64,000 nucleotides of DNA. Source: Chroococcidiopsis thermalis PCC 7203 (GTDB taxonomy: Bacteria; Cyanobacteriota; Cyanobacteriia; Cyanobacteriales; Chroococcidiopsidaceae). This document shows positions 41,559 through 46,353 of this stretch, piece after piece. Under the pieces are notes generated by a model. That model was not told the DNA's origin, ran no database searches, and saw only the letters and a program-made list of their open reading frames with translations. How positions within the stretch are numbered: the first letter of the stretch is position 1; every line of letters starts with the position of its first letter. The stretch spans positions 6,064,336 to 6,128,335 of the forward strand of contig NC_019695.1 of the NCBI RefSeq assembly GCF_000317125.1. Reading direction: 5' to 3'. A program made the position numbers and the translations under genes.

Positions 41559-42380
41559 ATGAACCAAGAAATTAAATTACTCGTCCTCGATATTGATGGG
41601 ACGATCGCGGGTAAGTCAAATCAAATTCATGCCAAAGTTAAAAAAGCGATTCAAGCAGTGCGGGCAAAAGGCATACAAGTGGCTGTAGCAACAGGACGAA
41701 TGTATCGTTCTGCCCTACGTTTCCATCATGAGATAGGTTCGACTTTGCCTCTACTTGCCTATCAAGGTGCTTGGATTCAAGATCCAGCTACCCAGAAAAT
41801 GCACCGTCATTGGACTGTTGCCAAGCAAACAGCAATTCAACTGTTAGATTACTTCGAGCAACCTGAATTGCGATCGCTGCTTTCGGTTCATTTCTATATC
41901 AACGATTGCCTCTACGTGCGCGAACTGACTTCTGAAACTCGACTTTACTCCGAACGCTCTGGGATTGAAGCGATCGCGGTGGGAGATTTACGCCAAGCTT
42001 TAACAACAGAACCAACAAAAGTATTAGCTCTGTGCGACGATACCGAAATCATCGATAACTTACTCAGCAGTCTGCGCCAGCAATATACCCCTGCTGAACT
42101 GTACCTGACTAAATCCGTTGCTACCTTCTTTGAAGCAACCAACCCTTCGATTAATAAGGGTGTAGGCGTGCGTTACTTAGCTGAAGAACTCCTGGGAATC
42201 ACTGCTGCTAACGTGATGGCAATTGGTGACAACTTTAACGATGTAGAGATGCTAGAGTATGCCGGGATCGGTGTAGCGATGGGTAATGCTCCATCTGACG
42301 TACAGGCGATCGCTCAGTGGGTAGCGCCTAGTGTCGAGCAAAATGGTGTTGCAGTTGCAATTGAAAAATTCTTACTTTAA
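41559..42380 (+). CDS. HAD-IIB (Cof-type) phosphatase
   Basis: A soluble haloacid-dehalogenase-family hydrolase of 273 residues, probably acting on a sugar phosphate or nucleotide. Motif I is LVLDIDGTIAG, motif II is VAVATGR, and motifs III and IV are KGVGVRYL and GDNFNDVEMLEYAG. A C2B-type cap lies between motifs II and III. The Cof family acts on many small phosphates, so the substrate cannot be named. The gene follows a tandem repeat patch (GATAACTGATAACT) and has no close neighbours. Confidence 0.88.
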   Translation: MNQEIKLLVLDIDGTIAGKSNQIHAKVKKAIQAVRAKGIQVAVATGRMYRSALRFHHEIGSTLPLLAYQGAWIQDPATQKMHRHWTVAKQTAIQLLDYFEQPELRSLLSVHFYINDCLYVRELTSETRLYSERSGIEAIAVGDLRQALTTEPTKVLALCDDTEIIDNLLSSLRQQYTPAELYLTKSVATFFEATNPSINKGVGVRYLAEELLGITAANVMAIGDNFNDVEMLEYAGIGVAMGNAPSDVQAIAQWVAPSVEQNGVAVAIEKFLL

Positions 42381-42440: not shown

Positions 42441-42510
42441 AAAAATCAGAAAGGACACCAACGACTGTCCGTGTTTCGTCTTGGTGTCCTGACTGGTTCG
42501 CTCCTCACAC
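42441..42510 (-). ncRNA. candidate small RNA with own promoter and terminator
   Basis: On the minus strand a -35 GTGACA (42545-42540), a 17-base spacer and a -10 TAATAT (42522-42517) predict a start near 42510. The transcript would begin GUGUGAGGAGCGAACC. It would end in a perfect 10-bp hairpin, AGGACACCAA with TTGGTGTCCT (42490-42481 and 42461-42452), then TTCTGATTTTT. The length is about 70 nt. The loop carries GACGAAACACGGACAG. The size and shape recall short cyanobacterial sRNAs such as Yfr2, but the match is not proved. It has no coding frame. Confidence 0.6.
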
Positions 42511-42516
42511 ACCCTT

Positions 42517-42545
42517 ATATTAGAGTAATGTTCTTGATTTGTCAC
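42517..42545 (-). promoter_or_regulatory. sigma70-type promoter of the small RNA
   Basis: GTGACA - 17 bases - TAATAT on the minus strand, pointing to the hairpin at 42452-42490. The elements are each one change from the consensus. Confidence 0.6.
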
Positions 42546-42674
42546 CCCCTTGAACGCTAATTTCTACCTAAAGACAGATAAGATTTGCCTATAGAGCAAG
42601 ATGCCTTATACAGTGACCAGTGACCAGTGACCAGTGACCGGTGACTAGTGACCAGTTTTATACTGTTCGCTAGT

Positions 42675-43649
42675 TCAAAGTTCTAAGGGTGCGCAACTAT
42701 TTAGTACTTCTACTAATAGAATTCTGAATACAGATTGAGCGATCGCTATTAAGCCAAGTCGCCCTTGTGCTAAGTTGAGATTTTGATTTTTGACCTCTCC
42801 CCAAATGCGACATTGACTATAAAAAGTTTGAAAAGCTTGACTCAGATTCAGAGCTACTTTCAACCAATTTAAAGACTTGCGAGTAGGATCGGGGCAATAG
42901 AGAGCGTCTAATACTCCAATCGATTCGAGGAGTAAATTTAACTCGGATGGGTGATGCAAACAAATTTTTGCTTCACTCAACCAAGGAATAGGTTGAGGTG
43001 ATATGACCTGTAGACATGAAGACTTAATGTCAGAGTTTTTTGACTTAATTATAATTATTTTCTCCTCATGAGCCATTTTCAATAGAGAACAACAACGAGC
43101 ATGAGCGTATTGGATGGGAAATTGGTAATTGGTAATTGGTAATTGGTAATTGGTAATTGGTAATTGGTAATTGGTAATGTCTCCCTCAGCTCCCTCAGCT
43201 CTCTTCTCCCCCCTGCTCCCTAAACAGGGTAGTGTCTCAATCCAGTGTTGCAACCAAGCAGCCAGACTGGGTTGAGGTAATTCTAGGTCGATCCACCCTG
43301 GGGGAACAACTTGAAGAATCAAGTTTTGTTGACAATCTTGTTGGGCAATTAGCTGCGATATAGATTGGGCAACTTCTATAGTTGGGGAGTTGACAAGTTG
43401 ACTTAATTTAAACGCGATCGCGCACCTGTAAACAACCGGGCGCTGTTTAGATAACTGTAAAGGAATATAACTTTTGCGATCTGTTAAGGATGGAGTGTCT
43501 AATATATACAAACTTAGCGCTGCTTGTATCTGCTGTAACAGCGCTTGCTTAGGTGTTAACTCAGCTAATGGAGGCGATCGGTGATCCACTTTTAATTTAT
43601 AGTTAAAATCCCTATCCCTACCTGGGGGATTTACCAAGGTTCCATGCAA
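42675..43649 (-). CDS. DALR anticodon-binding-domain protein with repeat insertion
   Basis: 324 residues. The C-terminal 110 (SEAKICLHHPSELNLLLESI to the end) resemble the DALR anticodon-binding domain of arginyl-tRNA synthetase. The N-terminal half has no synthetase signature motifs, so this is not a full enzyme. Residues near 148-180 contain a duplicated segment (NYQLPIT units). It is coded by a tandem GGTAATT DNA repeat (43119-43178) flanked by other intergenic-type repeats, and the frame remains open through it. The start is a TTG at 43649, with an in-frame stop just upstream. GTG at 43589 is an alternative. The role is unknown. Confidence 0.7.
   Translation of the reverse strand: MHGTLVNPPGRDRDFNYKLKVDHRSPPLAELTPKQALLQQIQAALSLYILDTPSLTDRKSYIPLQLSKQRPVVYRCAIAFKLSQLVNSPTIEVAQSISQLIAQQDCQQNLILQVVPPGWIDLELPQPSLAAWLQHWIETLPCLGSRGEKRAEGAEGDITNYQLPITNYQLPITNYQFPIQYAHARCCSLLKMAHEEKIIIIKSKNSDIKSSCLQVISPQPIPWLSEAKICLHHPSELNLLLESIGVLDALYCPDPTRKSLNWLKVALNLSQAFQTFYSQCRIWGEVKNQNLNLAQGRLGLIAIAQSVFRILLVEVLNSCAPLEL
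43119..43178. repeat. tandem GGTAATT repeat inside DALR-protein gene
   Basis: Eight or so copies of GGTAATT, read on the minus strand as NYQLPIT units. The same 7-mer occurs intergenically at 14911-14938. Confidence 0.92.
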
Positions 43650-44160: not shown

Positions 44161-44877
44161 ATGCATTCCCCATCCGCTTCTCCAGAGTCGCAAAGACCAT
44201 TTTTAACCTGGCAACGGATTCTTGACTGGGCGCAGGAACACTATCGCGTTCGCTCTTTTAGTAAAGACGAACGCATTCCAGCTCGACCTGGACTGCTCTA
44301 TCTCGTTCAAAGAGGTGCTGTGCGACTTGTAGGTACAGCTCAAGTTAGCGCAACTAGTCAGCTATCATCTCGGCGCATCAACAGAACACCTGAAGAAGCT
44401 TTTTTAGGCTTTGTTGGCGCTGGACAGCCGTTTGAAATTGTTGCCCAATCTCCGTTTACGCTCCAAGCTTATGCCCACGTAGAACCCACTTTAGTCGTGT
44501 GGATGTACTGGCATGACTTGGATAACTGGCCCCACTTTCGGCGGGAAGTTCTCGATGCATTTCGCTACCAACATCAGCGCAAGTTACTGTGGCTGAGTGC
44601 TTTAGGACAGCGACGGACGATCGATCGTCTCTTGGGATTCTTAACCCTGCTGGTAGAAGAATACGGACAACCAGCGACAAGTGAAGAAGATCCCGAGATT
44701 CTGCGCGGATACTCTCTACCGTTTACGCTGACGCACGCCCAAATTGGTAGTGCGATCGGTTCGACGCGAGTTACGGTGACTCGTTTAATGGGTAAGTTAC
44801 GCCAACGCGGTTTACTTATCGCCCAAGAAGATAATCTCATCTGTTTGCCAGCCGATTCAATCAATCGAGCTAGTTGA
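44161..44877 (+). CDS. Crp/Fnr-family transcription regulator (DevH-like)
   Basis: A 238-residue DNA-binding regulator with an N-terminal cyclic-nucleotide-binding-like fold (LYLVQRGAVRLVGTAQVSAT) and a C-terminal winged helix. The recognition helix region LTHAQIGSAIGSTRVTVTRL is shared with NtcA. The overall sequence differs clearly from NtcA, and I associate it from memory with the DevH type. The effector-binding arginine of CRP is not evident. Gene order supports DevH: the order devH, LysR, ndhF, ndhD is known in a heterocystous relative, and those genes follow here over 18 kb. A 16-bp inverted repeat follows the stop. Confidence 0.75.
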   Translation: MHSPSASPESQRPFLTWQRILDWAQEHYRVRSFSKDERIPARPGLLYLVQRGAVRLVGTAQVSATSQLSSRRINRTPEEAFLGFVGAGQPFEIVAQSPFTLQAYAHVEPTLVVWMYWHDLDNWPHFRREVLDAFRYQHQRKLLWLSALGQRRTIDRLLGFLTLLVEEYGQPATSEEDPEILRGYSLPFTLTHAQIGSAIGSTRVTVTRLMGKLRQRGLLIAQEDNLICLPADSINRAS

Positions 44878-44918: not shown

Positions 44919-45986
44919 CTAGCGCATTCGCACAAATCCAGCGTTAGCGATCGCCGACTGTCCTTGCTGCGTCAGCAGTAATTTAGCATAAGCTTCTCCT
45001 GCTTGCTGTGCTAAATCGTCATCTTGCTTGACGACAACGTACAGGTTACGTGTCAGAGGATATTGTCCGGTTTGAAAAGCATCTGTATTGAGCTGATTGC
45101 GCCGCTGAGGACAGTTATTCGCTGTTACTAAAGGTTCTTGGTAGGGAGGAGTAAATTGCCCTGATTGACGACCTAGCGGTAAGGGTCTAATCCTACACTG
45201 AGGTACGATTTCTGGAGCCGAGGCGTAGTAAATTCCGCCACGGTTACTAGCTAGCTTTTGTAGAGCTTGAGTTGTCGTACCGACAAATTCAACATTAGCA
45301 GCTAATGCTTGACCTGCTAAAACATCCTGTACGAAAAGCTCGACCGTACCACCCTCGCTCATCGGACGAGAATAAGGTTGAATCGGCAGGTTAGGACCAC
45401 CGAGTTGTTTCCAGTTATTTGCCTTACCCGTGTAAATTGCTTGCAGCTGTGCCAAGGTTAGTCCTGGTATATTTAGGCTGGGGTGAACTGCGATCGCTAA
45501 ACCATCAATTGCTACCGGAATTTCTTTTAAATTAAATCCTCTTTGCTGAGCGCGGGATACCTCTTGATCTTGTAAGGGTCGAGACGACTGAGCAAAGGTA
45601 AGCCTACCTTCAATCAGCATCCGAATACCAATACTAGTTCCTGGGGAAGCATTTGTCGGTTCTACAAATCGTAACTGAAATTCTGGATAAGCTGCCCTAA
45701 TTTGCGGATCGATCGCTTGTCGAATTGCTGCCCAAGAAGTACTACCACCATAGCTGAATAACCCTTTAGGAATGCCTGAAACACCGCTAAAACTTGAGCC
45801 AGTCAATTCTGGATCTGAAGTTATATCGGATGTGTTGGGGGTGGAAATAGATCTTGGCTGAGGATCGCTGAGTTCGACACTAGTGCTAGAATTTCTCGTC
45901 AGCCACCAAAAACCACCAGCTAAACCCCCAGCTACGATCAATAGAGTCAGAACGAGAACAGCTGTTTCATTTTTTTGCGACGACAT
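44919..45986 (-). CDS. anchored PstS-like phosphate-binding protein
   Basis: A periplasmic type II solute-binding protein of the PstS family. From the ATG at 45986 it has 355 residues. An N-terminal membrane anchor (MSSQKNETAVLVLTLLIVAG) precedes a serine-rich linker and two lobes with GLFSYGGSTSWAAIRQAID, RLTFAQSSRPLQDQE and YTGKANNWKQLGG. The frame reaches to 46067, but the extra residues are cysteine-rich and lack a ribosome-binding site. No phosphate permease or ATPase gene is near. The anchor matches that of the binding protein at 52292-53713, so these are modular relatives. Phosphate as ligand is inferred. Confidence 0.82.
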   Translation of the reverse strand: MSSQKNETAVLVLTLLIVAGGLAGGFWWLTRNSSTSVELSDPQPRSISTPNTSDITSDPELTGSSFSGVSGIPKGLFSYGGSTSWAAIRQAIDPQIRAAYPEFQLRFVEPTNASPGTSIGIRMLIEGRLTFAQSSRPLQDQEVSRAQQRGFNLKEIPVAIDGLAIAVHPSLNIPGLTLAQLQAIYTGKANNWKQLGGPNLPIQPYSRPMSEGGTVELFVQDVLAGQALAANVEFVGTTTQALQKLASNRGGIYYASAPEIVPQCRIRPLPLGRQSGQFTPPYQEPLVTANNCPQRRNQLNTDAFQTGQYPLTRNLYVVVKQDDDLAQQAGEAYAKLLLTQQGQSAIANAGFVRMR

Positions 45987-46353
45987 AACAGAATGATAAG
46001 TGCTGTAATAAGTGCAACATATACTTGCTTGCGTACAGATTATCCCCGCAGCAAAGCAGTGTTGCATCCCTGTGAGATCGCCTCTAATTCAAGCGATCGT
46101 CCTATGATGAAATCAAAGTACTTAAGTTAAGTGTTTTGCTCTCAGTAATCCTATGAATTAAACTCTTATGTCTGTTTTATCATAACCTAACCTTAATCTT
46201 GTCAGGACGATTAACTATATATATTTAGCGGCTTTTGGCACAAATAGTATACACACAACTACATAAAGTCACGATCGTTGGTCATGAGAATAGGGGTAAG
46301 GGTAAGAATTTCTTACTTACGACTTACGAATTACAAATTACGACTTATTTAAC

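Follow-up and report, generated by a model that had tools for sequence, protein, structure and literature searches.

In other bacteria, sponge or decoy sRNAs imitate the site at which a different sRNA binds its target, and we know of none with a sequence relation to the RNA described here. The closest described system is the Yfr2 family, which is the Cyano-1 family of Rfam (PMC8400943). Yfr2 RNAs are recognized by three features, namely a loop of 12 nt, a bulge at -4 and 8-13 unpaired nt at the 5' end (PMC2662882). Yfr2 binds Yfr1, whose validated targets in Nostoc include the mRNAs of murC and of a porin (PMC6974561). Repression by Yfr1 was relieved by Yfr2 in an E. coli reporter (PMC6778093). 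The yfr2 genes are described as multi-copy and located at unconserved loci (PMC6778093), so Yfr2 copies have not been matchable between species so far.

The locus reported here was found in a window of 64,000 nucleotides from Chroococcidiopsis thermalis PCC 7203, the whole stretch of DNA that was analysed. Judged by comparison of sequences, it is a real small-RNA gene of the known Yfr2 family, in a short form that is conserved in position. Our main reading, to which we assign a probability of roughly 0.75, is that this gene has its own promoter and hairpin end, and that its RNA would bind Yfr1 and lift repression. The features of the locus are listed in Table 1.

Table 1. Features of the sRNA locus and its neighbours (positions are those of the window).
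Feature	Position	Strand	Remark
-35-like box GTGACA	42540..42545	-	best-scoring box pair of its own upstream region
-10-like box TAATAT	42517..42522	-	ends 6 nt before GUGUGAGGAG
Predicted sRNA transcript, Yfr2/Cyano-1 family, about 70-74 nt	42441..42514	-	Rfam RF01701 and our own model R1
Conserved 5' motif GUGUGAGGAG	42501..42510	-	complementary to Yfr1 core CUCCUCACAC
Linker CGAAC	42496..42500	-	GAAC complementary to GUUC preceding the Yfr1 core; C-A mismatch between
Hairpin: CAG/CUG clamp, 2x2 internal loop, 10-bp stem, bulged G at 42462, 3-bp stem	42447..42495	-	
12-nt apical loop GAAACACGGACA	42466..42477	-	Yfr2 hallmark (PMC2662882)
U-rich 3' end UUUCUGAUUUUU, putative terminator tail	42441..42452	-	clean U-run not universal in relatives
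DALR_1-domain protein gene	42675..43649	-	upstream of sRNA, same strand; Pfam PF05746
Cof-type HAD-IIB hydrolase gene	41559..42380	+	convergent with sRNA; TIGR00099
Crp-family regulator gene	44161..44877	+	upstream of sRNA, opposite strand; Pfam Crp

A preliminary description of this DNA had reported GTGACA-17-TAATAT on the minus strand, followed by a stretch of about 70 nt that ends in a perfect 10-bp hairpin and a U-rich tail and has no coding frame. All of this was recovered. The two boxes are 17 nt apart in the letters of the window, AGGACACCAA and UUGGUGUCCU form a perfect 10-bp helix that GAC/GUC extends beyond the bulged G, and no open reading frame in the list covers the minus-strand stretch 42545-42441. 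No tRNA was found at the sRNA site. Each single-sequence element (the promoter boxes, the fold and the terminator) is weak evidence by itself. Seven promoter-like sites were found in the region compared with 3.7 ± 1.9 expected, and the folding z-score of the sRNA was -1.46, with 16 of 200 shuffles equally stable. The full hairpin is absent from the output of the terminator scan because the loop limit of that scan is 8 nt. We regard the sRNA gene as real because of its conservation, which is seen in a full-length Cyano-1 match, covariation far above that of shuffles and conserved promoter scores.

At the gathering threshold, Rfam gave no match anywhere in the window. When an E-value threshold was used over 301 bases, the sole match reported was Cyano-1 (RF01701) at 42514-42447, which spans the full length of the model (1-69) at 38.5 bits (E = 2.3e-5; cut-off 41). 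The gene had been called unannotated; this is correct in that it falls 2.5 bits under the Rfam cut-off, but the family is a known one, and the Cyano-1 model covers the sRNA from end to end. Our own model, R1, matches 42510-42445 at 93.3 bits, with the window copy among the rows used to build it. Each Yfr2 hallmark has its counterpart here. The unpaired conserved 5' motif GUGUGAGGA (PMC2662882) corresponds to GUGUGAGGAG, which lies outside the helices of the counted comparative structure, although some of the 5' arm is paired internally in the single-sequence fold. The 12-nt central loop on a long stem is GAAACACGGACA, and the bulge at -4 from the loop is the bulged G, which follows three pairs. 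A second, ordinary Yfr2 is present in the same genome (G000:C1:2895047-2895121, 58.9 bits). Yfr1 itself was rejected as an identity for the RNA, as the motif is the complement of that of Yfr1 and no RF01116 match (ACUCCUCACAC) was found here up to an E-value of 10. The preliminary description had suggested either an RNA that pairs with Yfr1 or a diverged Yfr2-like RNA, and had proposed the Rfam covariance-model search whose results are given above. By computation both readings hold, since Yfr2 RNAs pair with Yfr1 (PMC6778093, PMC6974561).

RF01701 was detected at E ≤ 1 in 58 of 60 relatives. From these Rfam hits, 39 loci resembling the short, low-scoring kind were hand-picked, together with the ordinary copy of the window's own genome. 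GCGAAC follows GUGUGAGGAG in 38 of the 39 picked loci; one genome (G031) has AGAAU instead. A DNA pattern for the short form matched at least 118 stretches in genome_contigs. The matches listed reach from Gloeomargarita and Thermosynechococcus through Nostoc, and also include one Gracilibacteria MAG (L126), which is probably a binning error. The 5' motif, the linker and part of the loop are invariant by construction in such matches because the search pattern fixes them. Three matches in viral_contigs look like chance and by eye none has the Yfr2 stem, so phage copies were rejected. Alignment A1 was made from 153 places (155 less two duplicates), which gave 96 distinct sequences. The linker GCGAAC is present in all 96 rows; it was imposed by the selection pattern and thus is not independent evidence. 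Across the 16 pairs of the hairpin, 99.5% of the 1536 cells are paired, double changes occur at 9 of the pairs, and 4 pairs never vary. Cells with double changes number 132 compared with 34.5 in shuffles, and none of 500 shuffles was as high. The weak single-sequence statistics could be taken to mean a chance resemblance in a non-functional spacer, but this explanation was rejected, with a negligible probability, on the covariation and on the conservation with compensatory changes across many cyanobacterial families.

The covariance model R1 separates the short form from other Yfr2. In 146 phylum genomes it gave 51 matches in 50 genomes at 68.9 bits or more, with the next score at 57.7; in the 60 relatives it gave 46 matches in 45 genomes at the same level, with the next score at 58.2. 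At this level each genome with a match has a single copy, apart from G125 and G034 (tandem pair). The two copies in G034 (L335) are about 180 nt apart, and by eye there are promoter-like boxes before each. No R1 match was present in five small genomes that belong to a single family of the same class, or outside the class among the genomes listed from the 146-genome sample. Only 5 of the 46 short-form copies in relatives pass the Rfam cut-off (G020, G027, G040, G045 and G048), as does 1 of 16 hand-chosen loci in a direct Rfam scan, and a shortened copy in G011 is missing from the RF01701 list of relatives altogether. Most members of this widely conserved form of the RNA are therefore lost at the Rfam cut-off. 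No description of a short form with a fixed position was found in the literature searched, where the primary paper on the Yfr2 family (Gierga 2009, RNA Biol) figures as a citation. Among the matches listed in a text search of papers for the motifs, all but a Yfr1 paper were unrelated by title.

Next to the short form, the same genes recur. Counting loci with enough flank (157 loci in all), the HAD gene is downstream and convergent in 80/132, the DALR gene is upstream on the same strand in 100/131 (at least 1200 bases upstream), and a Crp-family gene is upstream and opposite in 77/116. At least one of the three neighbours is kept in 82 of the 92 loci for which all flanks were available, and 44 of these loci keep all three. 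The 10 loci with none of them suggest that the RNA is independent of these neighbours. With equal flanks, a neighbour is shared in 153/231 pairs of short-form loci (22 loci, two from one family) versus 4/105 pairs of ordinary Yfr2 loci (15 loci from as many families, hand-chosen from 30). As side observations, the Crp-family regulator resembles PtrA (NCBIfam NF053664, 81 bits versus a cut-off of 300), a PstS-like binding protein gene adjoins it at 44919-46067, and PstS-like genes are near the sRNA in 48 of 153 loci compared. A phosphate link of the locus is possible. The DALR-protein ORF contains 8.4 perfect copies of the 7-base repeat AATTGGT at 43120-43178, which reads as an NYQLPIT-type protein repeat, and another 7-base array is located at 42611-42656, between this ORF and the sRNA.

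The promoter was compared in 112 upstream regions, which were left after de-duplication of the 156 that offered 60 bases. A top sigma-70-like score of at least 9/12 was reached in 94.6% of these regions, compared with 15.3% of shuffles, and in 97 of them the -10 box has its end 6-7 nt ahead of the motif. The terminal U-run is variable, with on average 4.3 T among the 10 nt that follow position 66. These data bear on the case that the preliminary description itself had named as refuting, in which the stretch is only the 3' terminator of the DALR-protein mRNA and there is no separate RNA. The frequent upstream DALR gene fits such a role, and the stem could end the DALR mRNA too. We consider this explanation highly improbable, as a conserved promoter lies between the DALR gene and the sRNA, a clean U-run is missing in many members, and the conserved features include the 5' motif, linker and loop, which a terminator does not need. 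In 31 of the 131 loci no DALR gene was detected in the expected place, while the element and its motif persist. The hairpin of the sRNA gene may also serve as a shared terminator for the sRNA and DALR transcripts. In many ordinary Yfr2 copies a TGTCAC-like element precedes the motif by about 45-50 nt (L002, L007-L033 upstream), and its complement GTGACA is at the -35 place in the short form. This could be a shared regulator site.

The 5' part of the sRNA had been described as the reverse complement of the Yfr1 core, and GUGUGAGGAG is indeed complementary to CUCCUCACAC. Yfr1 (RF01116) was found in 59 of 60 relatives, and in the window's own genome it is at G000:C1:2724825-2724889 (61.8 bits, Rfam). 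Because GUUCA precedes CUCCUCACAC in Yfr1 (56 of the 59 relatives), GUGUGAGGAG-C-GAAC is predicted to pair over 10 bp and, beyond a C-A mismatch, over 4 bp more, the last part being added by the linker. CGAAC was found in 4 of 33 readable ordinary Yfr2 copies, all four from one genus (38 were given, 5 without a readable motif). The co-folding gain of the sRNA with its own Yfr1 was -23.1 kcal/mol, compared with -7.2 ± 3.0 for 300 shuffled sRNAs, none of which was as good; across 40 genomes it was from -17.5 (G031) to -24.2. A plain duplex score that ignores folding (-33.9, with 247 of 500 shuffles as good) was uninformative. The ordinary Yfr2 of the same genome has a slightly better predicted gain of -25.5 kcal/mol and, therefore, the short form would not be the stronger sponge. 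Random linkers equalled the real linker in pairing with Yfr1 in 5.5% of cases. The real linker keeps a C where a U would pair with Yfr1 and thus is not tuned for maximal pairing.

GCGAAC occurs together with GUUC in Yfr1 in 41 of the 44 genomes having both RNAs. The other three (G031, G040 and G048) have another linker, and both genomes with GCUC in Yfr1 (G031 and G040) are among them; the chance of this overlap is 3/946 by our own arithmetic, which ignores kinship. This pattern is joint loss and not compensation. The 5' motif is changed to GUGUGGGGAG in the short form of G031 (L058) and in the ordinary Yfr2 of G040 (L329), and this sequence could still pair with Yfr1 via a G-U pair. We also considered whether the GAAACA loop makes a second contact, with UGUUUC in the 5' hairpin of Yfr1; this was unsupported because several Yfr1 lack UGUUUC (e.g., L301, L302, L308, L310) while the short forms of the same genomes (L048, L041, L061, L066) keep GAAACA.

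The same genome also contains candidate Yfr1 targets. Of its five copies of the 11-mer ACTCCTCACAC, one is in Yfr1 and one is opposite the ordinary Yfr2; the remaining three sites read GUGUGAGGAGU on the other strand. One of these three precedes an SLH-domain ORF, one a Mur-ligase ORF, and one lies elsewhere. GTGTGAGGAGT, the motif plus U, is 12 nt before the ATG of the SLH-domain ORF (499 aa) and 15 nt before the ATG of the MurC-like Mur-ligase ORF (498 aa), with lengths as far as the fetched locus reads (L195 and L196, a pair of loci). Such sites before start codons, in genes of known Yfr1 target types, indicate that the 5' arm of the sRNA resembles a Yfr1 target site. Most likely, the sRNA is a target-mimic sponge for Yfr1. 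It would be transcribed from its own promoter, ending at its own hairpin, and its 5' arm, as a copy of the site that Yfr1 binds in its mRNA targets, would bind Yfr1. Sequestration of Yfr1 would then lift repression of cell-envelope genes, for example the MurC-like and SLH-domain (porin-type) genes.

Another explanation is that this Yfr2-family RNA has a main partner other than Yfr1, with the linker, loop and upper stem binding a protein or other mRNAs directly. The loop and upper stem are (nearly) invariant, beyond the needs of Yfr1 pairing, and the C-A mismatch with Yfr1 is kept. A Yfr2 pull-down is reported to contain 302 mRNAs (PMC6778093), and protein binding through the bulge has been proposed for Yfr2 (PMC2662882). 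Against this, the 5' motif and linker match Yfr1, and the linker is altered in three genomes, which include both of those whose Yfr1 no longer has GUUC. We judge a different main partner to be unlikely and prefer the sponge for Yfr1.

More tentatively, Yfr2 in cyanobacteria may come in two kinds. Copies of the first kind would be mobile and variable. The second kind would be a single old copy that stays next to the HAD, DALR and Crp-family genes, has its own promoter and carries a linker co-evolving with the sequence that lies upstream of the Yfr1 core. This fixed copy might then represent the ancestral brake on Yfr1, under separate control. A copy that can be traced by position in many families lends itself to deletion and to comparison across cyanobacteria, and it raises the question of why Yfr1 needs more than one antagonist.

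Compared with known systems, the sRNA and Yfr1 (RF01116) have the pairing motif in common, in complement, with Yfr1 being the proposed partner encoded elsewhere. With Yfr2/Cyano-1 (RF01701; Yfr2-5 of Prochlorococcus and Yfr2a-c of Synechocystis), the sRNA shares the 5' GUGUGAGGAG, the 12-nt GAAACA loop, the bulge 4 nt from the loop, its own promoter and pairing with Yfr1, the last two being predicted here. It differs in having a shorter stem with a CAG/CUG clamp and in scoring mostly under the Rfam cut-off. The short form also keeps the linker GCGAAC, which is variable in ordinary Yfr2, and it has conserved neighbours and nearly always one copy per genome.
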